From the NCBI GenBank assembly GCA_003661385.1, contig QMWA01000038.1:1-11086 (forward strand): 11,086 bases of DNA. Direction: 5' to 3'. The translations under genes and the position numbers were made by a program. Below the pieces are notes generated by a model. The model searched no databases and was not told the DNA's origin. It saw only the letters and a program-made list of their open reading frames with translations. Positions 2 to 11,086 of the stretch are shown here, in pieces. This DNA comes from Thermoproteota archaeon (GTDB taxonomy: Archaea > Korarchaeota > Korarchaeia > B14-G2). Numbering within the stretch: the stretch's first letter is position 1; each line of letters starts with the position of its first letter.

Positions 2-643
2 GGGGACCCTGAGCATGTGAAGAGGCACCAGTCTAGGTACCTGAGGTACTTTGAGGGCAGAAGCAATGTGGTAGATGTTGGGTGTGGGCGAGGGGAGTTC
101 TTAGAGCTCCTGGCAGAGAGGGGGGTAGAATGCTATGGCATTGAAGCTGACCTGGACATGTACCTCTACTGCAGGAGTAAGGGGCTTAAGGTGGTCTACG
201 GCGACGCGCTGGAGCACCTGAGGAAGCTCAGCGACGGGAGCCTTGGTGGGGTGTTCCTTTCGCATGTTGCTGAGCACCTTGAGCCTGGTAGGCTTCTTGA
301 GCTGATCAGATTGTGCTACAGGAAGCTCAGGTCTGGCTGCTACCTCGTGGTCGAGTCGCCTAACCCAGCTTCACTCTATGCGATGGCTAAGCACTTCTAC
401 AGGGACTATACGCATGTGAAGCCTATTCACCCTGATGCCATGGCTTTTCTGCTCGAGAAAGCTGGGTTCCAGGACGTTGAGGTGCAGTATGTCTCAGATG
501 TGCCTGAAGACGAGAGGCTTAAGCTCCTTGACTCCTCAGGGCTGCCGAGGGAGGCTGCTGAGACGCTGAATGAGAACTTCATGAAGCTCAACTCTGTCAT
601 CTTCGCTTCACAAGACTATGCTGTAGTCGGCAGGAAGCCTTAG
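2..643 (+). CDS. SAM-dependent methyltransferase of polysaccharide clusters (5'-truncated by window edge)
   Basis: A class I Rossmann-fold methyltransferase that probably methylates a sugar or the end of a glycan chain in the cytoplasm. Numbering from the GTG at 17, motif I is VDVGCGRGEF (19-28), the acidic motif II region is GIEAD (41-45), GDALEHL (62-68) is motif III, and SHVAEHLEP (82-90) is motif IV. The stretch ESPNPASL...HFYRDYTHVKPIHPDAMAFLLEKAGF (113-151) is typical of the methyltransferases in O-antigen and exopolysaccharide loci. The frame stays open to base 2 and reads GDPEHVKRHQSRYL, which matches the usual lead-in of this family (GxxEEIKxRQxxYLPYF). The GTG at 17 is therefore probably internal and the true start lies outside the window. 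It ends at TAG 641-643, nine bases before the next gene, so the two are probably co-transcribed. The family is clear but the acceptor is unknown. Confidence 0.9.
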   Translation, partial: GDPEHVKRHQSRYLRYFEGRSNVVDVGCGRGEFLELLAERGVECYGIEADLDMYLYCRSKGLKVVYGDALEHLRKLSDGSLGGVFLSHVAEHLEPGRLLELIRLCYRKLRSGCYLVVESPNPASLYAMAKHFYRDYTHVKPIHPDAMAFLLEKAGFQDVEVQYVSDVPEDERLKLLDSSGLPREAAETLNENFMKLNSVIFASQDYAVVGRKP

Positions 644-652
644 GGTGTCTTG

Positions 653-2908
653 ATGAGGATAGCAGTGCTCATGCCTACTCAGCCTGTTCCAGTTAAGGGT
701 GGGGCTGAGAGGCTTACTGAGGGGATAGTGAGGAAGCTTAGGGAGAGAGGGTACTCAGCTGACCTGGTCAAAGTCGAGGTTGATGAGAGGAGCTGGGAGA
801 CCCTGCTTGAGGGCTACTGCAAGTTCTTCTACCTGGACTTGAGCAGCTATGACCTGGTGATATCGACTAAGGCCCCATCTTACATGGTGAGGCACAGGAA
901 CCACGTCTCATACCTCTACCACACTGTCAGGGTCTTCTACGACATGTTCCATGAGATCTCCCACGACAAGGAGAGCTATAGGAGGAGGGACATAGTGCAC
1001 TCGCTTGACAAGTATGGGCTTAGCCCGAAGAGGGTCAGGAGGCACTTCGTCAATGGCAGCCAGGTTGTGAAGAGGCTCATAGAGGCTGACAGCTACTGGC
1101 GTAGCATACCCTTCGAGGTCCTTCACCCCCCTTCTCCGCTGGAGGGCTTCAGGGAGGGAGACTACAAGTACGTGTTCATAGTTGGGAGGCTCCATAGGTG
1201 GAAGCGTATAGACCTTGTTGCCAAGGCCATGAGGTACATTAAGGGGGATGTGCAGCTTCTCATAGCTGGAGATGGGGAGGATAGGGGGGTCATAGAGGAG
1301 ATAGCTTCCAGGGACAGGAGGATAGAGCTCTTGGGGGAGGTGAGCGACGACGAGCTCCTGGAGCTCTACGCTAATGCCCTGGTTGTCCCCTTCACGCCTA
1401 AGTGGGAGGACTTTGGCCTCGTTACAGTGGAGGCTTTCATGAGCAAGAAGCCAGTGATAACCTGCACAGACTCAGGGGAGCCAGCTGTCATCGTGAAGGA
1501 TGGGGTAAGTGGCTTTGTGTGCCCGCCTAAGCCCAGGGAGGTCGCTAAGAGGATAAGGTACTTCCTGAAGTGGCCTGATGAAGCCAGGAGGATGGGGAGA
1601 AACGGCTACAGGACTGCCAAGGAAATCACCTGGAGCAACCTGATAGCAAAGCTCCTTGGCTTAGAGCAGAGCAGCAGCGGCAGCAGGAGGGTTAAGGTGC
1701 TTGTTGCTGACAACCAGGTTCTAGACCCTCCAGTTGGCGGGGGGAGGGTCAGGATATACGATCTGTACAGGAGCTTGCCACCTGAGTTCGAGGTTACCTA
1801 CGTGGGGTCATTTGACTGGCTTGGGCCAGCTTACAGAGAGCAGATGCTTGATGAGAGGCTCAAGGAGATCTGTGTTCCTATGACTGTGCCCCACATAGCT
1901 GTTAACTCCCTGGTAAGCAGGGCCTGCGGCGGGGAAGTCACTCTCGACGTGACTACGCCGTTCCTCATGAGGCTTACTCCACTCTACAAGAGGGTGCTGA
2001 GATACCACCTAGATGAGTGTGATGTGGTTGTCTGCAGCCACCCGTGGGTCTACCCTTACATAGGTGAGAAGAGGCCGCTGATCTATGACGCCCACAACTG
2101 TGAGTACTACATTAAGAGGGAGATTCTCGGAGGCACCTTCCTCGGCAGGATCCTGGCATGGCTTGTGAAGAGGCTTGAAGGGAGGGTCTGCAGGGAGTGT
2201 GATGCGATATTCGTGTGCTCTGAGGAGGATGCTGAGCTCTTCAAGAGGATCTATGGGGTGGATGGCAGCAAGATCCATGTGATCCCGAATGGCGTGAGAA
2301 CTGATGTCGTGAAGATGGCTCCACTGGAGAGGAAGGAGGAGGCCAAGAGGGAGCTTGGAGCCTCAGGCAGCGTTGTGCTGTTTGTTGGGAGCCCTTACAG
2401 GCCTAACATCGAGGCTGCTAGGTTCATATGCAGCAAGCTCGCTGAGGAGCTTGACAGCTGCGAGTTCCTGGTTGTCGGCGGGATAACTGAGGAGCACGTC
2501 GGCTGCAAGCCAGGTAACGTGAGGTTCATGGGGATAGTCGACTTCAGTACCCTGATGAAGGTGTATGAGGCCTCTGATGTCGCAGTCAACCCTGTGACGA
2601 GGGGCTCTGGCTCTAACGTGAAGATGTTCTGGTATATGGCTGCAGGGGTGCCTGTCGTCACAACTGAGGTGGGAGCTAGAGGCATCAGGGGGGAGCACAT
2701 GAAGCACTTCATAGTCGCTGAGCTAGAGGATTTCCCAAGGTACATAAGGCTGCTGCTCGAGGACAGGGAGCTCTACCTGAGGATCAGGAGGGAGGCTAGG
2801 AAGCTTGTTGAGGAGGAGTACGACTGCAGGGTGATAGCTAGGAGAGCTGGGGAGGTCATGCTGAAGCTCTTGGAGAGGCGTCGGGATGAGGGTTCTCATA
2901 GTGTCTAG
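653..2908 (+). CDS. Tandem two-domain GT4 glycosyltransferase (GT4-GT4 fusion)
   Basis: Two complete GT-B glycosyltransferases in one 751-residue chain, roughly twice the usual GT4 length. Domain 1 (about 1-338) has the N-terminal GGAE loop (16-19), VGRLHRWKRID (177-187), and the retaining-GT4 EX7E motif as E252 and E260 in EDFGLVTVE. A Ser/Gly-rich linker, QSSSGSRR, follows (339-346). Domain 2 (about 347-740) has VGGGRVRIYDL, AHNCEYY (480-486), VIPNGV (543-548), FVGSPYRPNIEAA (577-589) and the donor-site loop RGSGSNVKMFWYMAAGVPVV. In that loop the position usually Glu or Asp is Trp660. I start at ATG 653, five bases after GGTG (644-647); a TTG at 650 is also in frame. The 3' end overlaps the next gene by 23 bases. 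It may add two successive sugars, or the second half may be impaired or regulatory. Donor and acceptor cannot be read from sequence. Confidence 0.93.
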   Translation: MRIAVLMPTQPVPVKGGAERLTEGIVRKLRERGYSADLVKVEVDERSWETLLEGYCKFFYLDLSSYDLVISTKAPSYMVRHRNHVSYLYHTVRVFYDMFHEISHDKESYRRRDIVHSLDKYGLSPKRVRRHFVNGSQVVKRLIEADSYWRSIPFEVLHPPSPLEGFREGDYKYVFIVGRLHRWKRIDLVAKAMRYIKGDVQLLIAGDGEDRGVIEEIASRDRRIELLGEVSDDELLELYANALVVPFTPKWEDFGLVTVEAFMSKKPVITCTDSGEPAVIVKDGVSGFVCPPKPREVAKRIRYFLKWPDEARRMGRNGYRTAKEITWSNLIAKLLGLEQSSSGSRRVKVLVADNQVLDPPVGGGRVRIYDLYRSLPPEFEVTYVGSFDWLGPAYREQMLDERLKEICVPMTVPHIAVNSLVSRACGGEVTLDVTTPFLMRLTPLYKRVLRYHLDECDVVVCSHPWVYPYIGEKRPLIYDAHNCEYYIKREILGGTFLGRILAWLVKRLEGRVCRECDAIFVCSEEDAELFKRIYGVDGSKIHVIPNGVRTDVVKMAPLERKEEAKRELGASGSVVLFVGSPYRPNIEAARFICSKLAEELDSCEFLVVGGITEEHVGCKPGNVRFMGIVDFSTLMKVYEASDVAVNPVTRGSGSNVKMFWYMAAGVPVVTTEVGARGIRGEHMKHFIVAELEDFPRYIRLLLEDRELYLRIRREARKLVEEEYDCRVIARRAGEVMLKLLERRRDEGSHSV

Positions 2909-3926
2909 CTACCTGCCTGAGAGGTGTGGGATAGCTAAGTATGCTTGGCAGCTTGCTGAGCACCTCAGGAGGCAGGGGCATGTAGTCAACGTCCTGGCCC
3001 CACCAGGGTCCATGTCAGACTTCTGCGAGCCCCTCAAGGGGAAGCTGGGGCCCCTTAAGGTGCTTAAGTACGCGTTCTTCTACGATAAGGTCTTGCTGAA
3101 CTTCCACGAGTCCTTCTTCTACCAGAGTGGCGTCCTGAACAGGGCTTTCACGCACCTGTCGTTTGCCTTGCTGTTCCTGCTGGCTCGGAACCTTGAGGTC
3201 ATCTGCCATGAGTACCCTAAGCTGGAGGGTAGGGGGCTTCTGGGCTGGCTTGACAGGAAGGTGCTTAAGCTCATCTGGTCTCTAGCTCCCAGGGTGGTTT
3301 TCCACACAGAGAGGGAGCTGAGCGGGTTCTCCAAGCTGTTTGGCGTCCCTAGGGAGAGGCTTGGGCTCAGAAGGCATGGGGAGAGCTTCATGAGGTTTGC
3401 TGCAGCAGGCAAGCTTGAGGCCAGGAGGAAGCTCAGCTTGAGCCCAAGCGACTTCATCCTGCTTTGCATAGGGTTTATCCAGCCTCACAAGGGGTTTGAT
3501 AGGGTGGTCAAGGCGTTCAAGAAGGTCAAGAGCAGCAGGGTGAAGCTGTACATCGTCGGGTCCATCAGGCTCTTTACCAGGGAGTACATTGAGTACTTGC
3601 GTGAGCTCAGGAGGCTTGCATCAGAGTGCAGTGGAGTGCACTTGGTGTACAGGTACATCAGCGACGAGGAGTTTGACCTGTGGATTGCTTCCTCAGATGT
3701 AGTTGTGCTCCCATACAGGGAGATATGGTCTTCTGGTGTGCTTGAGAGAGCTAAGCTCTATGGTAAGCCTGTTATAGCATCTGATGTCGGTGGGGTAGCT
3801 GACCAGCTCTCCAGCTCAGACTACCTGTTTAAGAGCGATGAGGAGCTCGAGGAGCTCCTTCAGGAGCTAGCTGAGCTAGCTGACGAAGCCCTCTCAAGGA
3901 GAGAGGACAGGGACTCGACTGTGTAG
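2886..3926 (+). CDS. GT4 family glycosyltransferase
   Basis: A single GT-B enzyme of 346 residues, a normal to slightly short length for the family. It probably transfers a sugar from a nucleotide donor to a growing lipid-linked glycan at the membrane's inner face. The N-terminus, MRVLIVSSYLPERCGIAKYAWQL, carries the CGIA-Y loop seen in one branch of GT4 enzymes. Acceptor-domain HE motifs lie at NFHESF and ICHEYP. The donor half begins near IGFIQPHKGFDRV (195-207), and EX7E is E279/E287 in EIWSSGVLE, followed by GKPVIASDVGG. The usual glycine-rich VIPHG segment is replaced by LRRHGESF (160-168). ATG 2886 lies inside the preceding coding sequence, implying translational coupling. The last 67 bases also encode, on the other strand, the C-terminus of the convergent GT4, and the tail here is acidic and helical (EELLQELAELADEAL). 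Substrates are unknown. Confidence 0.92.
   Translation: MRVLIVSSYLPERCGIAKYAWQLAEHLRRQGHVVNVLAPPGSMSDFCEPLKGKLGPLKVLKYAFFYDKVLLNFHESFFYQSGVLNRAFTHLSFALLFLLARNLEVICHEYPKLEGRGLLGWLDRKVLKLIWSLAPRVVFHTERELSGFSKLFGVPRERLGLRRHGESFMRFAAAGKLEARRKLSLSPSDFILLCIGFIQPHKGFDRVVKAFKKVKSSRVKLYIVGSIRLFTREYIEYLRELRRLASECSGVHLVYRYISDEEFDLWIASSDVVVLPYREIWSSGVLERAKLYGKPVIASDVGGVADQLSSSDYLFKSDEELEELLQELAELADEALSRREDRDSTV
3841..3859. repeat. Inverted repeat at the convergent GT4/GT4 junction
   Basis: AGGAGCTC (3841-3848) and GAGCTCCT (3852-3859) form a perfect 8-base inverted repeat with a 3-base spacer, extendable by a G-T pair. It starts on the base after the minus-strand TGA (3862-3860), so a minus-strand transcript would carry a hairpin right behind its stop codon. 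In the plus direction it is within the coding sequence for the EELEELLQ tail. A role in transcript-end formation is plausible but inferred. Confidence 0.5.
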
Positions 3927-4981
3927 CTTATGCTGTACCGCCTGGCCTTCGCGAGCGCTGCTCTACCCATCTGCTCCGCCTTGCTTCTCGACTTCAAGAG
4001 CAGGATGGCCTTCTCAGCTATCTCTCTCGGGCTCCTGGACACCAGGTACCCTGTGACCCTGTCTTCCACGAGCTCCAGGAGGCCGCCTTCAGCTGAGACT
4101 ATAGCAGGCTTCGATGAGGCCATTGCCTCCAGCACAGCTAGCCCAAAGGGCTCCCTCTCAGGTGTGTAGATGAGGCAGTATGCCTGCGAGTACAGGTCTA
4201 TGAGCTCGCCTTCACCGACCTCACCTAGGAGCTCCACCCTCCTCTCTACCCCCAGAGACCTGGCTAGGGAGAGCAGCCTCAGCTTCTCAGGGCCTTCTCC
4301 GACTATGATGAGCTTCGCATCCGGGATCCTCTTTGCAATGAGCTTCATAGCCTTGACCACCAGATCCACCCTCTTGTGCTTGACTAAGCGGGCTACAGTG
4401 AGGAGAACTGGGGCATCTGGGCTTCTTGGCCTATATGAGCTCAGCTTCACCCCAGGGTACACCACAGGCGCCTCTATGCCATAGGCTAGCCTGATGTACC
4501 TCCGTGTGTAAGCTGAGTTTGAGGCTATGGCATCGACTTGCAGGGCCTTCTTCCTGTCATAGGCTCTAAGAGCCCAGAGGGCAGCCTGTGATACAGGCCT
4601 TGGAGCAGGGAGCTGAGCTGCATACTCATGTGAGAGGTCGTAGAGCTCTCGAGGAGGCTCATGGCAGTACCATACTGATGGGTGCTTTGATGCTAGGTGT
4701 GATGGGAAGCCGTGTAGGTTGTATACGTCGTGGTCTCCCATGCTTGCAGCAAGCAGCTTAGCTGCAAGCGGGTAGAGCGGCATCCTCAGCAGGCGTGCAG
4801 CTGGCTGAACCTCGATTACGCTGAACTCTGGCGCACCCCACTTCTCCACGCTGTAGCGTGTGGTATACACTGTGACCTGGTGGTGTGCTGAGAGGCCTTC
4901 TGCAAGCTGCAGCACTAGCTTCTGGGAGCCGCCATAGAGGTCCAGCCTGGGGTGCAGTAGAGCTATGTCTAGTCTAGCCAA
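3860..4981 (-). CDS. GT4 family glycosyltransferase, ALG2-like, coupled to ABC exporter
   Basis: A 373-residue retaining GT4 enzyme. The N-terminus IALLHPRLDLYGGSQKLVLQLAEGL, the YCHEPPRELYD segment (105-115) and SNSAYTRRYIRLAYG resemble the ALG2/mannosyltransferase-like branch, although the sugar is not predictable. Donor-site features are VARLVKHKRVD (196-206), IIVGEGPE, and EX7E as E277/E285 in EPFGLAVLE. The start is TTG at 4981. It overlaps the permease stop (TAG 4976-4974) by eight bases and has GAGGT six bases upstream, so translation is probably coupled to the transporter. This places the enzyme at the step closest to export. The C-terminus ends in a low-complexity tail, RASSASSASS, produced by a tandem AGCTAGCTG repeat within the 67-base overlap with the opposing gene. 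The TGA stop is at 3862-3860, directly followed on this strand by an inverted repeat. Confidence 0.93.
   Translation of the reverse strand: MARLDIALLHPRLDLYGGSQKLVLQLAEGLSAHHQVTVYTTRYSVEKWGAPEFSVIEVQPAARLLRMPLYPLAAKLLAASMGDHDVYNLHGFPSHLASKHPSVWYCHEPPRELYDLSHEYAAQLPAPRPVSQAALWALRAYDRKKALQVDAIASNSAYTRRYIRLAYGIEAPVVYPGVKLSSYRPRSPDAPVLLTVARLVKHKRVDLVVKAMKLIAKRIPDAKLIIVGEGPEKLRLLSLARSLGVERRVELLGEVGEGELIDLYSQAYCLIYTPEREPFGLAVLEAMASSKPAIVSAEGGLLELVEDRVTGYLVSRSPREIAEKAILLLKSRSKAEQMGRAALAKARRYSISYTVESLSSLLERASSASSASS
3865..3881. repeat. AGCTAGCT direct and inverted repeat inside the overlapping coding ends
   Basis: AGCTAGCT occurs twice around a single central G (3865-3872 and 3874-3881). Because each unit is itself palindromic, the element is both a direct and an inverted repeat. 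In the plus frame it contributes to the LAELAD tail of one GT4. In the minus frame it encodes the ASSASS tail of the other. Expansion of this repeat could have created the low-complexity end. Confidence 0.6.
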
Positions 4982-5732
4982 GGTAGTACCTCTCTTCTCT
5001 AGACTTGAATATCAGGTATCCTGCTGCTAGAGAGGCTATGGACGCTAGTAGGGTGTATGCTATGCTTGAGGCCTGTGGAAGAGCTCCCTGGAGGACCACT
5101 GACCTAGCCATGGTGAGCATGTGTGTGTACGGGTTTATGAGGATAGCTCTCTTCAGCAGTGGGGAGATGTTGTCTAGCGGGTAGACTACAGGGACTGAGA
5201 AGAAGAGGAGGTTCAGGTATATGTCAGCCAGGTAGCCTACGTCATCGTACTCAGCGTAGAAGGAGGCTAAGGCCATTGCGATGCCTAAGGTGAAGACATG
5301 TGTGACTAGGAGGACTGGTATTATCAGGGTGCTAGCTGGTGTGAGCTTGATCCCGAGCACCAGCACACCTACTACCAGGAGAGCAAGCAGGTCGCCCATG
5401 CTGTGGAACAGCGATGAGAAGGCGTTCCCTAGGGGTATTGAGAGCATGTGTATCGGAGTGGAGTTTATCAGGGCTCTCTGCTGCCTTACTGAGCTCATCA
5501 CCTGGGTTGTGCAGTGTGCTATGGTCCTCCAGACTGTGAGGCCGACTAGCAGGTAGGCCCCATACTCCCTGAGGTCGAGGCCTAGGATCGCTGAGAAGAC
5601 TAGGGCGAAGACAGCTAGGAGGCCTAGTGGGTGTATGAAGCTCCATAGGAAGCCTAGCAGGGAGTTCCTGTACTCTACCTTGATGTTCTTCCACGCTATT
5701 ATGAGGCTTGCTCTCAGGACTTCAGGCAGCAC
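4974..5732 (-). CDS. ABC-2 type polysaccharide export permease (Wzm/TagG family)
   Basis: The membrane half of an ABC transporter that moves a lipid-linked or free polysaccharide from the cytoplasmic face outward. At 252 residues it is a normal length. The cytoplasmic entry segment IKVEYRNSLLGFLWSFIHPL (17-36) is the hallmark of the Wzm/TagG group. Six hydrophobic stretches lie at about 32-51, 59-72, 107-126, 133-157, 168-186 and 221-243, with the conserved INPYTHMLTMARSVVLQG region at 199-216. The start is GTG 5732, one base after the ATPase stop and preceded by GGGTGG on the coding strand. With its overlap into the downstream GT4, this makes a compact ATPase-permease-GT4 unit. CTAG tetramers and CTA leucine codons are noticeably more frequent here than in block A. 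Confidence 0.95.
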   Translation of the reverse strand: MLPEVLRASLIIAWKNIKVEYRNSLLGFLWSFIHPLGLLAVFALVFSAILGLDLREYGAYLLVGLTVWRTIAHCTTQVMSSVRQQRALINSTPIHMLSIPLGNAFSSLFHSMGDLLALLVVGVLVLGIKLTPASTLIIPVLLVTHVFTLGIAMALASFYAEYDDVGYLADIYLNLLFFSVPVVYPLDNISPLLKRAILINPYTHMLTMARSVVLQGALPQASSIAYTLLASIASLAAGYLIFKSREERYYLG

Positions 5733-5733
5733 C

Positions 5734-6915
5734 TTAGACCACCCTGTAGGATATCTCTGTCTCAGCTAGCAGCATCCCATCTGAGCTGCTGTCGGTAGGC
5801 GTCACCCTGAAGCTCAGGGCCCTCTCTCTCCAGTCGAATACCTCAGCTGACCCAGGGGTGTGAGCTGCTACCGTGACGTGGTAGAAGCCTGAGTTGAGGG
5901 GTAGCTTCTGCTTGAAGTCTACTATCAGGATATCGCCGCTGCTGAGCGGTGGCAGGTGGATGCTCTTCCTCCACGTGTTGGTCCCGTACACTATGCTGCC
6001 TGCTGCATCAGTTATCCTTATTCCTACTACAGGAGACTCTACTCTGCTGTTGGCTCTGCAGACTACCCTTATCAGCAGGCTTCCTGCCTTAACTGAGGAG
6101 ACCTCCTTGAGGGTAGCTGGGTCGAGGAGCTTCACCTCAGTGATCTCCATCTTGGATCCGGTGGCTTCGGTGGGCCTTGAGCTGGGCTCAGCCTCCTCTA
6201 CTATGACACCCCTGTTCATGAAGCCTATCACATCACATATCCTCTCTGCTATGTTCCTGTCGTGTGTAGCTACCATGAAGGTCTTTCCCTCGTCTCTCTT
6301 GGCTAGAAGGAACTCTAGAGCCCTCCTCCTGAACCTCTCGTCTCCTGGAGCTAGAGCCTCATCTATCAGTATGACATCTGGGTCGTGTATGAAGCTTCTC
6401 GCGAAGGCTAGCCTAGCTACCATCCCGCTGGAGAGCTTCTTCACCTTCGTGTCAGCGAACTCCTCCAGCTCAGAGAACTCCAGAGCCCACTTTATCCTCT
6501 CCTTCCTCTCCCTCCTGCTGAACCCCATGTACCTGGCGTAGAAGTCCAGGTTCTCCTTCACGGTGAGTTCACTGTACAGGTTTGAGCCCAGAGCTACTAT
6601 CACAGCTACCCTCCTCTTCAGGGCCTCTATGTCTCTCAGCGGGTTGAAGCCAAGCACCTTGACGTACCCTCGGGTTGGTGGCAGGATGCCAGCAACCATC
6701 TTGATCAAGGTGGTTTTGCCAGCTCCATTAGGGCCCATCAGCCCATAGGACATCCCGGAGTCTATGCTCAAGCTGACGTTATTGACTGCTGTGATGACTC
6801 TCTGCCTGTACTTGCCAGTCAGCATGTGCAGAATCGTGTGCTTGAGGCTATGGGAGACCTCAGGTGAAGCTATTGTGAACTCCCTAGTCAGGTTCCTGGC
6901 TTCTATCGCGAGCAA
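5734..6915 (-). CDS. ABC polysaccharide exporter ATPase with C-terminal glycan-binding domain (Wzt family)
   Basis: The nucleotide-binding subunit that powers the adjacent permease. The ATPase domain (about 1-240) has Walker A GPNGAGKTT (61-69), the signature LSSGM (161-165), Walker B VILIDEA (181-187) and the H-loop His218 in ATHD. As in Wzt/TagH proteins, the Q-loop region reads VALGSNLYSELTVKENL. After a polar linker (about 240-256), residues 257-393 form a beta-rich extension containing VVGIRITDAAGSIVYGTNTW, LNSGFYHVTVAAHT and FDWRERALSFRV. These match the Wzt C-terminal immunoglobulin-like domain that reads terminal modifications on exported O-polysaccharides in bacteria. The start is TTG 6915; an in-frame TGA lies 12 bases upstream and no ATG occurs before residue 31. 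A TATA-like box sits about 35 bases upstream. The family call is firm; recognition of a capped chain is inferred from characterised homologues. Confidence 0.95.
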   Translation of the reverse strand: MLAIEARNLTREFTIASPEVSHSLKHTILHMLTGKYRQRVITAVNNVSLSIDSGMSYGLMGPNGAGKTTLIKMVAGILPPTRGYVKVLGFNPLRDIEALKRRVAVIVALGSNLYSELTVKENLDFYARYMGFSRRERKERIKWALEFSELEEFADTKVKKLSSGMVARLAFARSFIHDPDVILIDEALAPGDERFRRRALEFLLAKRDEGKTFMVATHDRNIAERICDVIGFMNRGVIVEEAEPSSRPTEATGSKMEITEVKLLDPATLKEVSSVKAGSLLIRVVCRANSRVESPVVGIRITDAAGSIVYGTNTWRKSIHLPPLSSGDILIVDFKQKLPLNSGFYHVTVAAHTPGSAEVFDWRERALSFRVTPTDSSSDGMLLAETEISYRVV

Positions 6916-7014: not shown

Positions 7015-7893
7015 CTAAGAGGGCTGGCTGGAGGTAGCTGGCTGCTTGCCTAGGATGGCTTGAGCTATGCCTAGGAGCATCGAGAAGGCTGCTGCAGCCA
7101 GCGCTATGGCGTAGTGTAGCTTTGCCTTCAAGCCTGGCTGCTGTGCTGGCTTGTAGTTCATGGCGTTTGCCTTAGCGTCCTCGTAGACCGTCCTGGCAGC
7201 CCAGTAGATGAGCTTAGCTGGGTGAAGCCGCCTGAACACGTCGCTGTGCTTCCTGAATATCCCCATCACCCCTCTCCCGTGCCTCATCTGGCTTAGGACA
7301 AGCTCCCTCATCTTCTGGAAGGGCTGGTGGACTACGCTAGCTGCCTTGACGTACTTGAACTCGTATCCTGCCTTCACTACCTTCAGCTGGAAGTCCTTGT
7401 CTTCTCCTGCCTCCAGGCTCTCGTCGAAGAGCCCTGCTTTCAAGGCAGCTTCCCTCCTGAACGCCATGTTAGCTCCCCAGAACACCTGGCCGAACACGCT
7501 CTTCTTCTCTGTTCTCTGCCCTGCTGCGTTCAGTATGCTGCCGCATACCACTCCTACCTCTGGGCTGCTGAAGGGCTTACAGAGCTCTTCTAGCCACCTC
7601 CCTGATGAGGGGTAGCAGTCTGCGTCCAGTACAGCCACAATCTCCCCTCTGGCCTCTAGGATCCCTGTGTTGACTGCAGCAGACTTCTTCGGCCTCCTCG
7701 CCTTCACTACCTTGACGCCCTTCCTCCTAGCTATCTCTGGTGTCATGTCTGTTGAGTAGCTGTCCACTACTATGACCTCAAATGGGTAGGGGGCCTGCTG
7801 GGACAGCACTAGACTCAGGCACCTCTCTATTGTCCTCTGCTCGTCTTTTGCTGGTATGACCACTGTCACCTTTGGAGGTAAGCTCATTAACAC
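7015..7893 (-). CDS. GT2 family glycosyltransferase with C-terminal membrane anchor
   Basis: A GT-A fold enzyme of 292 residues. The nucleotide-sugar binding half starts with VTVVIPAKDEQRTIERCLSLVLSQ (9-31), continues through VIVVDSYSTDMT, and has the metal-binding DXD-type motif VLDADCYP (88-95). Acceptor-side features are GANMAFRREAALKAGLFDESL, the probable catalytic region GEDKDFQLKVVKAGY (163-177), and H-G in SQMRHGRGVMG. A hydrophobic stretch at about 260-282 looks like a single membrane helix, followed by a short polar tail. It probably adds an early or branching sugar to a membrane-bound acceptor. The start could be GTG 7893 (GGTGG lies three bases upstream) or ATG 7887; the first two residues are therefore uncertain. 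It is divergent from the GT4 at 7951. The 99-base gap to the ATPase gene contains a separate TATA-like box, so it may be a single-gene transcript. Confidence 0.93.
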   Translation of the reverse strand: MLMSLPPKVTVVIPAKDEQRTIERCLSLVLSQQAPYPFEVIVVDSYSTDMTPEIARRKGVKVVKARRPKKSAAVNTGILEARGEIVAVLDADCYPSSGRWLEELCKPFSSPEVGVVCGSILNAAGQRTEKKSVFGQVFWGANMAFRREAALKAGLFDESLEAGEDKDFQLKVVKAGYEFKYVKAASVVHQPFQKMRELVLSQMRHGRGVMGIFRKHSDVFRRLHPAKLIYWAARTVYEDAKANAMNYKPAQQPGLKAKLHYAIALAAAAFSMLLGIAQAILGKQPATSSQPS

Positions 7894-7950: not shown

Positions 7951-9093
7951 TTGAGGATTGCCGTGGTGAACAGCTTCTACCCACCGTGGAGGGGTGGAGC
8001 TGAAACCTACGTGAGCAACTTAGCTAAGTGCCTGGTGGAGCTTGGGCATGAGGTTGCTGTGCTGTGCTCTGAGAAGCCTCTGAAAGCTGGCATCTACTAC
8101 GATGGGGGGGTGAAGGTCTGGAGGATGGAAGCCTCCCTCAGGGTATACGGCACCCCAGTGTTCCCTGAGCTCACCTACAGGCTGCTGTCAGAGGACTTCG
8201 ACCTGGTGCACGCCAACTTCCCAAGCCCGTATGTGGCAGCATGCTCCTCCCTGGCTTCCCTGCTGAGGGCTAAGCCAGCTGTGCTGACCTGGCATAACGA
8301 CCTGCCTCCAGTAGCTCCGCTCGCCAGAGGGCTCATCTCAGTCCACGACAGGATAGCCATGCTCTACCTGAGGCTTTTCAGGGCGATAATAGCGACCACC
8401 AGGGCATATGCGCTGAAGTCCAGGATACTCAGGTCGCTATCCAGCAGGGTTCATGTGATACCATGTGGGGTGGATGCAAGCAGGTTCAGCCCATCAGTGA
8501 GCGGGAGGAGGGTTAGAGAGGAGCTTGGTGCCTTTGGGAGGGTTGTGCTGTTCGTCGGGGCACTAACGAGGTGGCATGGCTACAAGGGGCTTGACGTGCT
8601 GCTGAAGGCCATGAGGCTCGTTAGGCAGGCTGTCAAAGACGTTAAGCTCATCGTGGTCGGCGACGGGGAGCTTAGGGTGTGGTATGAGAAGCTTGCTGAG
8701 AAAGCTGGAGTCAGGGACGTGACCTGCTTCGCTGGAGATGTGAGCGATGAGAGGCTTCCAGAGTACTATGCTGCAGCAGACCTGCTGGCTATGCCGAGCA
8801 AAGACGACTCTGAGGGGTTTGGGATAGTAGCCCTGGAGGCTAACGCCTGTGGGAAGCCTGTTGTAGCATGTAGGGTCGGTGGGGTGGTTGACGTCGTGAG
8901 GAATGGGGTTAATGGGGTTCTGGTTGAGCCCAACAGCCCAGGGCAGCTGGCTTCAGCTATAGTGCGCCTGCTTACCAGAGACGACTTGAGGGAGGAGCTT
9001 GGGAGGAGGGGGAGAAGGCTCGCTGAGAGGTATGACTGGATGCAGATAGCAGCTAGGGTCTCAGAGCTCTATGCTGCAGTAGCTGGTGGGTGA
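7951..9093 (+). CDS. GT4 family glycosyltransferase
   Basis: A 380-residue retaining GT-B enzyme with an intact set of motifs: FYPPWRGGAETYVSNLA (9-25), TWHNDLP (113-119), VIPCGVD (169-175), GALTRWHGYKG with R207 and K212 contacting donor phosphate in homologues, VVGDGEL (235-241), and EX7E as E288/E296 in EGFGIVALE, followed by GKPVVACRVGGV and NGVNGVLV. The layout is of the PimB/WcaL-like sort, but the sugar is unknown. The start is well fixed. TTG 7951 directly follows an in-frame TAG (7948-7950), with GGTG at 7942-7945 as ribosome-binding sequence. It is followed closely by a second GT4. Base run G7 at 8104-8110 does not disturb the frame. Confidence 0.94.
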   Translation: MRIAVVNSFYPPWRGGAETYVSNLAKCLVELGHEVAVLCSEKPLKAGIYYDGGVKVWRMEASLRVYGTPVFPELTYRLLSEDFDLVHANFPSPYVAACSSLASLLRAKPAVLTWHNDLPPVAPLARGLISVHDRIAMLYLRLFRAIIATTRAYALKSRILRSLSSRVHVIPCGVDASRFSPSVSGRRVREELGAFGRVVLFVGALTRWHGYKGLDVLLKAMRLVRQAVKDVKLIVVGDGELRVWYEKLAEKAGVRDVTCFAGDVSDERLPEYYAAADLLAMPSKDDSEGFGIVALEANACGKPVVACRVGGVVDVVRNGVNGVLVEPNSPGQLASAIVRLLTRDDLREELGRRGRRLAERYDWMQIAARVSELYAAVAGG

Positions 9094-9097
9094 GCTC

Positions 9098-10102
9098 TTG
9101 AGGATCCTGGTCGTTGGGGACCTCTCCTCCCCCTTCGTGAGGCAGGACTATAGGCTGCTCTCTGAGCTGGCTAGCGTAAGGCTGCTGTCAGCTGGAGGCT
9201 ACTTGGGATACTTCGCCAAGCTCCTGGAGGCTGGAGGCTACGACGTGTACTACGCGTGGTGGGCTAGCAGCCTCCACAACGTGGTCTACTCCAAGGTGCA
9301 TGGTGGAGCCTCCGTCGTGGTTGCAGGCGGCTTCGACGTCGTGTCTGAGGACAGCGTCAAGTACGGGTTCAGGTGGCAGCCCTGGTGGAAGAGGAAGGCT
9401 GTAAGGTACTGCCTCAGGGAGGCTGACCTCATCCTGGCTGTCAGCAGGTTTGTGGAGGAGCATGTCAGGAGGCTGGAGCCTAAGGCTAGAGTTGAGGTCG
9501 CCTACCTTGGAGTAGACCCAGAGAGGTTTGCTCCAGCTAGCCTGCAGCAGAGGAAGCCTGTCATCTTGACTGTAGCCCACCTGACAGCTAAGAGCATAGT
9601 GTACAAGGGGGTGGTGGACTTGCTTGAGGCCTTCGCTCACGTGGCTAAGAGGAAGCCTGAGGCTAGGCTTCGCATAGCTGGAGCACACCGAGGAGGGGAG
9701 GCTACGCTAGCTAGGAGAGCCAAGGAGCTGGGTTTGAGCAGCAGAGTTGAGCTCATCGGGGAGGTGGAGCACAGCAGGATACACAGGCTATACCAGGAGG
9801 CCATGGTCTATGCTCAGCTCAGCAGAGTTGAGAGCTTCGGGCTGTGCGTAGCTGAAGCCATGTCCTGTGGAACCCCCGTGGTAGTGTCTGGAGCAGGTGG
9901 GCTCCGTGAGGTGGCTGGAGGCGTTGGAGCTACCGCTAGGCCAGATGACCCTGAGGAGGTTGCTGACGTTGTGTGCAGCCTCCTAGAGGACAGGAGGCTC
10001 TGGCTTGAGCTGAGCGAGCTCAGCAGGTCCAGGATCCTGGAGGGGTTCACGCTATCCCACAGGAAGAGGAGGCTAGCTCAGGCTATGGAGTCTGTTGCCT
10101 AA
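9098..10102 (+). CDS. GT4 family glycosyltransferase with short acceptor domain
   Basis: A retaining GT-B enzyme of about 334 residues, at the short end of the family because the N-terminal acceptor domain is only about 140 residues. I prefer TTG 9098, which gives MRILVVGDLSSPF and has GGTGAG (9089-9094) just upstream, overlapping the previous gene's stop. The longer option is GTG 9086, whose codon sits in the GGTGG immediately before that ribosome-binding sequence. Numbered from TTG: AVSRFVEEH (114-122), YLGVDPERF (136-144), LTVAHLTAKSIVYKGVVDLLEAF (157-179) and EX7E as E245/E253 in ESFGLCVAE, followed by CGTPVVVSGAGGLREV. The usual arginine of the donor loop is His161 here. It forms an operon with the preceding GT4. 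The last 20 bases overlap the convergent membrane-protein gene. Confidence 0.92.
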   Translation: MRILVVGDLSSPFVRQDYRLLSELASVRLLSAGGYLGYFAKLLEAGGYDVYYAWWASSLHNVVYSKVHGGASVVVAGGFDVVSEDSVKYGFRWQPWWKRKAVRYCLREADLILAVSRFVEEHVRRLEPKARVEVAYLGVDPERFAPASLQQRKPVILTVAHLTAKSIVYKGVVDLLEAFAHVAKRKPEARLRIAGAHRGGEATLARRAKELGLSSRVELIGEVEHSRIHRLYQEAMVYAQLSRVESFGLCVAEAMSCGTPVVVSGAGGLREVAGGVGATARPDDPEEVADVVCSLLEDRRLWLELSELSRSRILEGFTLSHRKRRLAQAMESVA

Positions 10103-10862
10103 GCTTCCTAGCCTGGTAGGCTGCTAGCAAGGCTTTAGCTGCAGCCAGCCACATGGGGAGCACTAGGAGCAGGGCAGCGTACCTTGCTGCCAGCCCTCCG
10201 AGCGAGCATGGCAGCCTGCCTGCCACACACAGGGGGTACAGTGCTATCTTAGCTATGGCCTCAGCTAGCTTGGTGTAGCTTGCTCTCGGAACCCTTACCT
10301 CGACCCCACTTACCCTAGTCTCGACTAGAGGAGCAAACACGAGCAGGATAGACAGCAGTACTGCTAGAGATGCTACTGGAGACAAAGCTGACCCTATCTT
10401 GCCCTCTGGCATCAGCCTGTAGGCTATGATGGAGAGCGAGATGTGAGCTAGCAGCAGAGGGAGAAGCCATGCTCCAGATGGCAGCTGCAAGACAGTGTAT
10501 CTGCCAGTCTCCTTCACCACGGGGGTAGGCAGCCTCATGCACCTGGCTGACACAGCTAGCACCACAGCTGTCGCGGCCAGAGAGGCAGCGAAGCTCGGCC
10601 TCAGCTTCCTATCCGCTGACAGCAGAGCTGCAGACGCTGCAGCCAGGGGCAGGGCGAACGTGTAGACTGCTGCCTGGAAGGACATCTCTACCATGAGCTT
10701 CCCTAGCCTGATGTAGGAGGGCATGTAGAAGACGTTTAGGCTTATCTTCCCCCGAGCAAACCCTGTCCTCCCAACTGACGTGGACATCAGCCCCATAGCG
10801 TACGCTATGGTGCCTAGCAGGCTTAAAATGAGCACTGAGGCAGGCAGGTGGTAGAGCTTCAA
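10083..10862 (-). CDS. Hypothetical polytopic membrane protein (6-7 TM)
   Basis: I do not recognise this family. The protein is about 259 residues. Hydrophobic segments, numbered from TTG 10862, fall near 8-26, 63-82, 90-108, 130-148, 158-179 and 220-248, with a possible extra one near 200-215. Positively charged stretches (SADRKLRPS, the C-terminal YQARKLRQQ) probably face the cytoplasm. There are three cysteines (in RCMRLP, LCVAGRLPC). The start is chosen because TTG 10862-10860 overlaps the TGA of the upstream gene as TTGA and GAGGTG lies six bases before it. A GTG at 10871 would add three residues but falls inside that ribosome-binding sequence. Its position among glycosyltransferases suggests a role in the envelope glycan pathway, but nothing in the sequence identifies an enzyme or transporter. 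Confidence 0.75.
   Translation of the reverse strand: MKLYHLPASVLILSLLGTIAYAMGLMSTSVGRTGFARGKISLNVFYMPSYIRLGKLMVEMSFQAAVYTFALPLAAASAALLSADRKLRPSFAASLAATAVVLAVSARCMRLPTPVVKETGRYTVLQLPSGAWLLPLLLAHISLSIIAYRLMPEGKIGSALSPVASLAVLLSILLVFAPLVETRVSGVEVRVPRASYTKLAEAIAKIALYPLCVAGRLPCSLGGLAARYAALLLVLPMWLAAAKALLAAYQARKLRQQTP
10793..10810. repeat. Perfect 18-base palindrome in the membrane-protein gene
   Basis: CCATAGCGTACGCTATGG is identical to its reverse complement. It lies in codons for TIAYAMG in the first predicted membrane helix, about 55 bases downstream of the TTG start. It could be an RNA hairpin near the 5' end of the reading frame, a protein-binding site, or coincidence. Confidence 0.55.
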
Positions 10863-11086
10863 CCCCCACACCTCATGTAAACTGATGCCACCCCAGCGTC
10901 AACAACCTTCGAGACACCACGAGCCAGCATCCAGCGCTCCAGCCTCTCCTCGAGGACGACTGCAGCTGCACCCTCCCCTAGGGCATCTGGGAGAGCACGC
11001 ACGTCGCTATACGGGGGGCAGCTTGGCTCTAGCATGGCCTTTGCCAGGGGGGCTAGGGGATCTGGGTACAGTATGGGGGTGCTCGA
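10859..11086 (-). CDS. C-terminal fragment of an unrecognised protein (runs off right edge)
   Basis: A reading frame open at the right edge encodes 75 residues and ends at TGA 10861-10859. It begins SSTPILYPDPLAPLAKAM and continues through SDVRALPDALGEGAAAVVLEERLERWMLARGVSKVVDAG to the terminal YMRCGG. Reality is supported by uninterrupted length to the edge, an archaeal-looking mix of codons, and a TTGA stop/start overlap with the membrane-protein gene, which has a GAGGTG ribosome-binding sequence inside this frame. The YPDPLAPLAKAML stretch vaguely recalls the post-donor-site region of GT4 enzymes (P-DP--LA-A), but no catalytic motif is inside the window, so I do not assign a function. Only the C-terminus is visible. 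Confidence 0.6.
   Translation of the reverse strand, partial: SSTPILYPDPLAPLAKAMLEPSCPPYSDVRALPDALGEGAAAVVLEERLERWMLARGVSKVVDAGVASVYMRCGG

Follow-up and report, generated by a model that had tools for sequence, protein, structure and literature searches.

The window analysed here, the whole stretch of 11,086 bp, is one complete contig (C38 of genome G000) of an assembly of 1.74 Mb in 206 contigs, which is 91% complete. Its left part carries two convergent groups of genes. On the minus strand, a Wzt-type ABC ATPase with a C-terminal carbohydrate-binding domain (5734-6915, 393 aa, TTG start) is followed by a Wzm-type permease (4974-5732, 252 aa, GTG start) and a GT4 glycosyltransferase, here termed GT4c (3860-4981, 373 aa, TTG start). 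These three reading frames lie where the original prediction had placed them, with a single base (position 5733) between the ATPase and permease genes and an overlap of 8 bases (4974-4981) between the permease and GT4c genes. Facing them on the plus strand are a SAM methyltransferase domain (2-643), a candidate chain-capping enzyme whose 5' end is cut by the contig start, a two-module GT4 of WbdA-like layout as candidate polymerase (650-2908, 752 aa) and a further GT4, a candidate adaptor or second-linkage transferase (2886-3926, 346 aa). A GT2 glycosyltransferase upstream of the ATPase (7015-7893, minus strand; Pfam Glycos_transf_2, 1.1e-28) possibly belongs to the same pathway, judging from its position alone.

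The ATPase matches the Pfam families ABC_tran (1.4e-28) and Wzt_C (6.3e-25; 88.3 bits against a cut-off of 30.4), the latter with residues 255-381 over profile positions 9-140 of 143. The carbohydrate-binding domain (residues 254-393; 5734-6156, minus strand) was modelled in isolation with AF2 (pLDDT 89.9, pTM 0.86) and compared with Wzt structures. The model has the Ig-like fold of these domains and ranks them above all other structures, with Z 17.1 to 8dky/6o14 and at most 10.8 to unrelated folds. For 8dky_A, the Aquifex domain in complex with 3-O-methyl-mannose, the rmsd is 2.2 Å over 124 aligned residues. The top Foldseek matches of the full-length ATPase are the A. aeolicus WzmWzt structures (E 1.5e-35). 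A Wzt-type C-terminal domain, as originally predicted, is thus well supported. In Aquifex the cap is contacted by Asn313, Thr346, Ala348, His350 and Trp362 (PMC9445017), all of which are present in the window ATPase as N313, T348, A350, H352 and W362. These residues are mostly conserved across the whole family and are therefore no proof of methyl recognition. Compared with the Aquifex methyl-mannose reader, the pocket has Arg in place of Leu300 and Asp in place of Val380, so the cap read by the window ATPase may be other than 3-O-methyl-mannose. The domain is less of a novelty in archaea than had been suggested: it is rare in the sampled relatives (4 of 394 genomes) and common in the class of genome G360, inferred to be Methanosarcinia and called the methanogen class below (73 of 237 genomes). 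A search of genome contigs with the ATPase alone returned mostly ABC ATPases of the DrrA type, which have no such domain.

The connection between the two ATPase domains is unusual. In an alignment of 60 Wzt sequences, the window ATPase and 59 others, the linker between nucleotide-binding and carbohydrate-binding domain comprises 20 residues in the window ATPase (237-256; 6148-6207, minus strand) and 33-80 in the others, or 37-80 if the Wzt of G184, which has no carbohydrate-binding domain, is left out. No helix of four or more residues is found in this linker in the AF2 model. The hinge helix of Aquifex docks the dimer of carbohydrate-binding domains and contacts the glycan (PMC9445017); it is not known to be needed in all Wzt proteins. 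Because of its 20-residue linker and missing hinge helix, the window ATPase is a variant rather than a plain member of the cap-reading Wzm/Wzt exporters of the O8/O9a/Aquifex type. The completeness of the domain is no sign of ordinary function in an ATPase without the docking helix, and coupling between the domain and transport could have been lost. A further difference is the segment of residues 89-100 (GFNPLRDIEALK; 6616-6651, minus strand), which counts 12 residues in the window ATPase and one in the 59 others and is thus 11 residues longer than in all other aligned Wzt; DrrA-type ATPases have a segment of this kind. The window ATPase reads VALG where the 59 others, without insert, read LELG or LEVG. 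LELG or LEVG together with a short preceding segment is a common trait and not an established requirement. A gate helix is predicted from AF2 secondary structure at residues 24-33, in an extended beta1-beta2 connection (6817-6846, minus strand); this region is missing from the DrrA-type ATPases in the alignment.

The permease belongs to ABC2_membrane (Pfam, 6.1e-18), and its top chain in phmmer is A. aeolicus Wzm (6m96_B, E 4.3e-15). Its LG...W....P motif (SLLGFLWSFIHP) aligns with the Aquifex motif, and its YDD with the Asp of Aquifex TM4-5. GT4c matches Glycos_transf_1 (Pfam, 1.5e-40); in the methanogen-class loci checked, its reciprocal best match is the GT4 whose gene immediately precedes that of Wzm. 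Such a homologue lies directly upstream of Wzm in 26 of 41 loci of this class and one gene away in three more, which supports the proposed association of GT4 and exporter genes. It is the gene set that is conserved and not, as had been supposed, the order ATPase-permease-GT4, since the order elsewhere is GT4-Wzm-Wzt. Synteny of the GT4 in relatives holds in part: the trio stays together in methanogen-class loci, but in G028 of the same phylum, the nearest relative with Wzm, whose Wzt has no carbohydrate-binding domain, no GT4c-like GT4 was seen beside the exporter on the stretch examined, where the contig ends inside Wzm. The label ALG2-like for GT4c received no specific support. Its best curated models are generic GT4s, far below cut-off, and its nearest solved structures are of the BshA type and WbaZ-1.

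Each of the six genes of the block has its reciprocal best match in G541/G564, two methanogen-class genomes in which the six counterparts are consecutive and colinear. The cassette GT4-Wzm-Wzt-MT-GT4x2-GT4 of the methanogen class was found here and is previously uncharacterised. The methyltransferase (SAM motif VDVGCGRGEF) shares 43-50% identity with its counterparts after Wzt in methanogen-class loci, and 47% with those of loci L143/L144. In this class a methyltransferase is located directly downstream of Wzt in 19 of 41 loci and at most four genes away in 24. The window enzyme is also homologous to the methyltransferase after wzt of E. coli O8 (37% over 144 aa, E 3.9e-25) and to a Pseudomonas enzyme adjacent to Wzt. 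MetW was rejected as its function, as the score of 46 bits does not reach the cut-off of 189.5. The methanogen homologues have N-terminal extensions of about 205-290 aa, in which a coiled coil is suggested by a home-made score alone. Any coiled-coil ruler on the window enzyme would lie beyond the contig start, and no sign of the missing N-terminus was seen in 254 kb of other sequence of the same assembly. The two-module GT4, with two GT4 regions within its 752 aa (Pfam), shares 48% identity over 775 columns with the double GT4 of 774 aa that follows the methyltransferase of L144 and groups with L143/L144/L147 (SH-aLRT 100). The gene that comes next in L143/L144 encodes a protein with 44-46% identity to the GT4 at 2886-3926.

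Identity to the methanogen genes is 46-48% in the biosynthetic half (methyltransferase, double GT4 and second GT4) and only 26-30% in the exporter half (Wzt, Wzm and GT4c), with 44-48% and 25-31% as the wider ranges, whereas most methanogen pairs show the higher conservation in the exporter. Judged from this reversed contrast, the two halves differ in history or rate. In the methanogen-class loci L171, L172, L173 and L178, exporter alleles were apparently swapped while the cassette was retained. In the trees, Wzt and Wzm sit on very long branches, of 3.9 and 3.6 changes per column, that join other long branches, so that they do not decide on a bacterial origin of the exporter.

In bacteria such as E. 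coli O8/O9a, the chain is built, its end is capped by methylation, and only finished chains are exported; all six kinds of gene that serve this purpose there have homologues in the window. We consider it likely that a polysaccharide pathway of this kind, dependent on an ABC transporter and controlled by a cap, is encoded in the block from 2 to 6915; homology establishes its gene set, and the activities of the enzymes, the polymer and the chemistry of the cap are predictions. By analogy with their homologues, the two GT4s (2886-3926 and 3860-4981) would begin the chain on a lipid carrier or adapt it there, and its polymerisation at the cytosolic face would fall to the two-module GT4 (650-2908). 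The methyltransferase (2-643), as a homologue of the O8-locus enzyme, would then methylate the non-reducing end and thereby stop growth. The capped end would be bound by the modelled Ig-like domain of the ATPase, and Wzm/Wzt would push the capped chain out. In this scheme the ATPase would have to relay cap binding without a hinge helix. The capped glycan of the original prediction is now better supported, because the far end of this block carries a homologue of the O8-locus and methanogen Wzt-adjacent methyltransferases. As a tentative proposal, the exporter might link the reading of the cap to transport in another way, with Arg and Asp at the cap site, a DrrA-type segment in the nucleotide-binding domain and no hinge helix, and export an archaeal polymer with a methyl cap that is produced by the module shared with methanogens. 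For a WaaL-type ligase, no Wzy_C match was found in the 91% complete assembly, nor in the archaeal control genomes.

Wzm/Wzt might instead act as a flippase for a lipid-linked oligosaccharide or a teichoic-acid-like polymer, with the domain reading internal or unmodified sugars, and feed N-glycosylation by STT3/AglB. STT3 is present in the assembly, Wzt/Wzm pairs without the carbohydrate-binding domain occur in other archaea including G028, and the gate helix is common to TarH/TagH-type ATPases (PMC6379404). However, the domain is closest to cap readers and is found together with a homologue of an O8-locus methyltransferase; a Wzx-type flippase gene region also exists in the assembly, although broken across frames. 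We regard this reading as rather unlikely. It is likewise improbable that the domain is vestigial and the ATPase exports without cap reading. The short linker, the loss of the hinge helix, VALG in place of LELG and the very long branch would fit such decay, but no part of the domain is missing, its fold is modelled with confidence, and Asn, Thr, Ala, His and Trp are retained at the cap site.

Exporter and biosynthetic genes could also be independent neighbouring pathways, acquired separately, with the ATPase serving another, possibly uncapped glycan. The reversed identity contrast, the separate convergent operons and the apparent exporter swaps in methanogens are in line with this. Against it, GT4c beside the exporter retains its cassette identity, swapping in the methanogen class leaves the cassette in place, and a full six-gene set within 6.9 kb is hardly expected by chance, which makes two unrelated pathways improbable. 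Still, with such unequal identity to the methanogen cassette the two operons might have separate roles, which counts against the main reading. An assembly or binning artefact, by which a contig from another organism entered the archaeal bin, is very improbable. The window is a single 11 kb contig among 206, and Wzt_C and the window-type methyltransferase are missing from nearly all relatives. Its tetranucleotide profile, however, fits 16 sampled contigs of its own assembly (r 0.965) and not 12 outside loci (r <0.51), so gross mis-binning is unlikely, and for one of the GT4s encoded on the contig the top match in the fetched loci (46.6%) comes from a genome of this phylum. The assembly carries the archaeal markers FttA with KH_TffA, HerA, PolB, CDC48 and STT3 (no archaeal SSU match was found in it), and the contig is archaeal.

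For archaea, mostly S-layer N-glycans have been described, and we know of few archaeal long surface polysaccharides with a known assembly route. The window and the methanogen-class loci together predict an O8/O9a-like archaeal pathway in which a methyl-ended polymer would be exported only when finished; the window ATPase bears on whether cap-dependent export needs a hinge helix. A search of an open-access collection of papers turned up no account of a cap-reading Wzm/Wzt system from an archaeon, which is not proof of absence. With the O-antigen systems of E. coli O8/O9a and K. pneumoniae O3/O5, comprising Wzm, Wzt, WbdD and WbdA (PMC3482155, PMC11231755), the window shares Wzm, a Wzt with carbohydrate-binding domain, a polymerase (a candidate in the window) built of several glycosyltransferase modules and, within the wzt locus, a homologous methyltransferase. 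In contrast to them it is archaeal, is arranged in two convergent operons with Wzt before Wzm, has an ATPase with an extra segment and no hinge helix, and shows no kinase; lipid A and a ligase are not expected. Aquifex WzmWzt (7k2t, 8dku, 8dky; PMC9445017) has both ATPase domain folds, most cap-contact residues and the Wzm family in common with the window, but differs in the two pocket exchanges, in LELG and in the hinge helix with Tyr233. The methanogen-class cassette contains all six genes, colinear in G541/G564, which in the window are split into two facing operons with a diverged exporter half. The S-layer glycan system of Geobacillus stearothermophilus consists of Wzm, Wzt and WsaE, in which methyltransferase and glycosyltransferases are fused (PMC2943079). 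By description, not by sequence, it resembles the window in a methyl-capped glycan (predicted here), in methyltransferase and glycosyltransferases near Wzm/Wzt, and in a single-membrane cell. A convergent layout similar to that of the window was found on a Pseudorhizobium plasmid, where MT-GT4-GT4x2 faces Wzt (with carbohydrate-binding domain)-Wzm-GT4.

Three genes on the minus strand encode a Wzt-type ABC ATPase (5734-6915), a Wzm-type permease (4974-5732) and a GT4 glycosyltransferase (3860-4981), in exactly the positions and arrangement of the original prediction. By Pfam, the ATPase combines an ABC domain with a C-terminal Wzt domain, the permease matches ABC2_membrane and the third gene matches GT4. 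Among the sequences of solved structures, the permease is closest to Aquifex Wzm, and the carbohydrate-binding domain of the ATPase (CBM), taken alone, to its Aquifex counterpart, whose crystal structure contains 3-O-methyl-mannose (E 8e-6). AlphaFold2 models had a pLDDT of 86 for the whole ATPase and 90 for the isolated CBM. The top PDB match of the full-chain model is Aquifex WzmWzt (E 1.5e-35). For the CBM model, Z is 13.7-17.1 against the Wzt domains of Aquifex, E. coli O9a (2r5o, C-terminal domain) and O12 (5hno, 5hnp), compared to 10.8 for the highest-scoring non-Wzt fold. Both Pfam and these models confirm the Wzt-type C-terminal domain; the comparison of models with Wzt structures was the test originally proposed for it.

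For gene neighbourhood comparison, 41 loci were fetched from the archaeal class of genome G360, presumably Methanosarcinia. A homologue of the window GT4 (3860-4981) lies directly upstream of Wzm in 26 of these loci and one gene further in 3 more. Homologues of the window methyltransferase (2-643, plus strand, 5' end cut by the contig start) directly follow Wzt in 19/41 and come at most four genes after it in 24/41. The genomes G541 and G564 carry six consecutive genes in the order GT4-Wzm-Wzt-methyltransferase-double GT4-GT4, of which the six window genes are one-by-one reciprocal best matches. Identity to this cassette is 47% for the methyltransferase, 48% over the whole length for the double GT4 (650-2908), 44-46% for the GT4 at 2886-3926, 28-30% for the GT4 at 3860-4981, 30-31% for Wzt and 25-26% for Wzm. 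The window splits this set into two operons that face each other, methyltransferase-double GT4-GT4 and Wzt-Wzm-GT4, and only the latter had been considered before. The order ATPase-permease-GT4 is not conserved; G541 and G564 show GT4-Wzm-Wzt. A GT4-Wzm-Wzt(CBM)-methyltransferase-GT4 cassette is conserved in the class of G360 (L139-L178); no description of it was found in the literature searched. A similar convergent layout occurs in bacteria, on a Pseudorhizobium flavum plasmid (L180), where methyltransferase-GT4-double GT4 faces Wzt(CBM)-Wzm-GT4.

The gene following wzt in an E. coli O8-type locus encodes a homologue of the window methyltransferase (37% over 144 aa, E 4e-25), and another homologue occupies this position in Pseudomonas. 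In O9a, WbdD, the counterpart of the O8 enzyme, terminates the chain, and the Wzt CBM reads the end that WbdD produces; O8 uses a methyltransferase-only homologue instead (PMC3482155). In Klebsiella O3/O5 systems the WbdA polymerases contain two or three GT modules, and the WbdD terminators carry a coiled-coil ruler (PMC11231755). For Geobacillus, methyl-capped S-layer glycans with Wzm/Wzt export were proposed (PMC2943079). By analogy with these systems, the window genes would provide polymerisation, capping and export, the last of which we infer to be cap-gated. The original interpretation is partly supported: it is right about the domain, and probably right about a capped glycan once the overlooked methyltransferase operon is counted.

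The ATPase itself is divergent. We aligned 60 Wzt ATPases, nearly all of the CBM type and mostly from the methanogen class, with some from bacteria and some from contigs filed as viral. Only the window ATPase has 11 extra residues after beta3 and VALG in place of LELG/LEVG (1/60 each). Its linker between ATPase domain and CBM comprises 20 residues versus 33-80 in the others (37-80 once G184, a genome whose Wzt lacks the CBM, is left out), and the hinge helix is absent from its AlphaFold2 model. The Aquifex cap-site residues Asn313, Thr346, Ala348, His350 and Trp362 are all retained; Leu300 is changed to Arg and Val380 to Asp. Judged from these pocket residues, the cap may be charged or bulkier.

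Wzt_C exceeded the cut-off in 4 of 394 archaeal relatives, the window's genome counted, versus 73 of 237 genomes in the class of G360 (about a third of those sampled). The domain is therefore nothing new in methanogens, although few of the other archaea sampled have it, and contrary to what had been supposed its presence in an archaeon is not remarkable as such. In the archaeal genome G069, a Wzt-type ATPase (L087:10061-12079) carries, at the place of the CBM, a long C-terminal stretch resembling, by eye, Sel1-like repeats. Contigs filed as viral in IMG/VR (L182-L188) contain full Wzt-CBM genes preceded by ORFs of about 900 aa, and resemble polysaccharide loci of bacteria.

The window is an entire contig of 11,086 bp, and its assembly comprises 1.74 Mb in 206 contigs and is 91% complete. 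Sampled contigs carry the archaeal markers FttA, HerA, family B polymerase, XPB-like helicase and CDC48, STT3 is present in the assembly, and the window agrees in composition with 16 other contigs. The window is therefore archaeal. A MOP flippase-type match in the assembly (G000:C30:3083-3903; L199, L200) is split over two reading frames with an internal TGA, and is either a pseudogene or a sequencing error.

The two halves of the module appear to differ in history or rate. The exporter genes of G541 share about 54-88% identity with those of most loci in the class; the methyltransferase (about 29-56%) and the double GT4 are less conserved. Exceptions are L172 and L178, which bear different exporter alleles (Wzt 35-37%, Wzm 26% to the cassette locus L143). 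The window shows the reverse pattern against the cassette, with biosynthetic genes better conserved than the exporter. In the double-GT4 tree the window groups with L143, L144 and L147 (SH-aLRT 100), and a search of 297 relatives at E 1e-18 found the window methyltransferase in no other genome. For Wzt and Wzm, by contrast, the window forms a very long lone branch in the tree; all these trees come from quick searches, contain long branches and are unable to place the exporter. We infer that the biosynthetic genes were transferred between the window lineage and methanogens, in either direction, or came from a shared third source, and that the exporter had a faster or different history. In L171, L172, L173 and L178 the exporter is a different allele while the neighbouring GT4 keeps about 80% identity, which looks like an exchange of the exporter.

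Two further window genes were noted. The minus-strand gene at 10083-10871, beside two GT4 genes, encodes a hydrophobic protein of 262 aa without a match in Pfam or NCBIfam, probably a membrane protein. The plus-strand GT4 at 7951-9093 is 46.6% identical to a GT4 (L090:6599-7753) that adjoins a Wzt/Wzm pair without a CBM in G028, which belongs to the same phylum.
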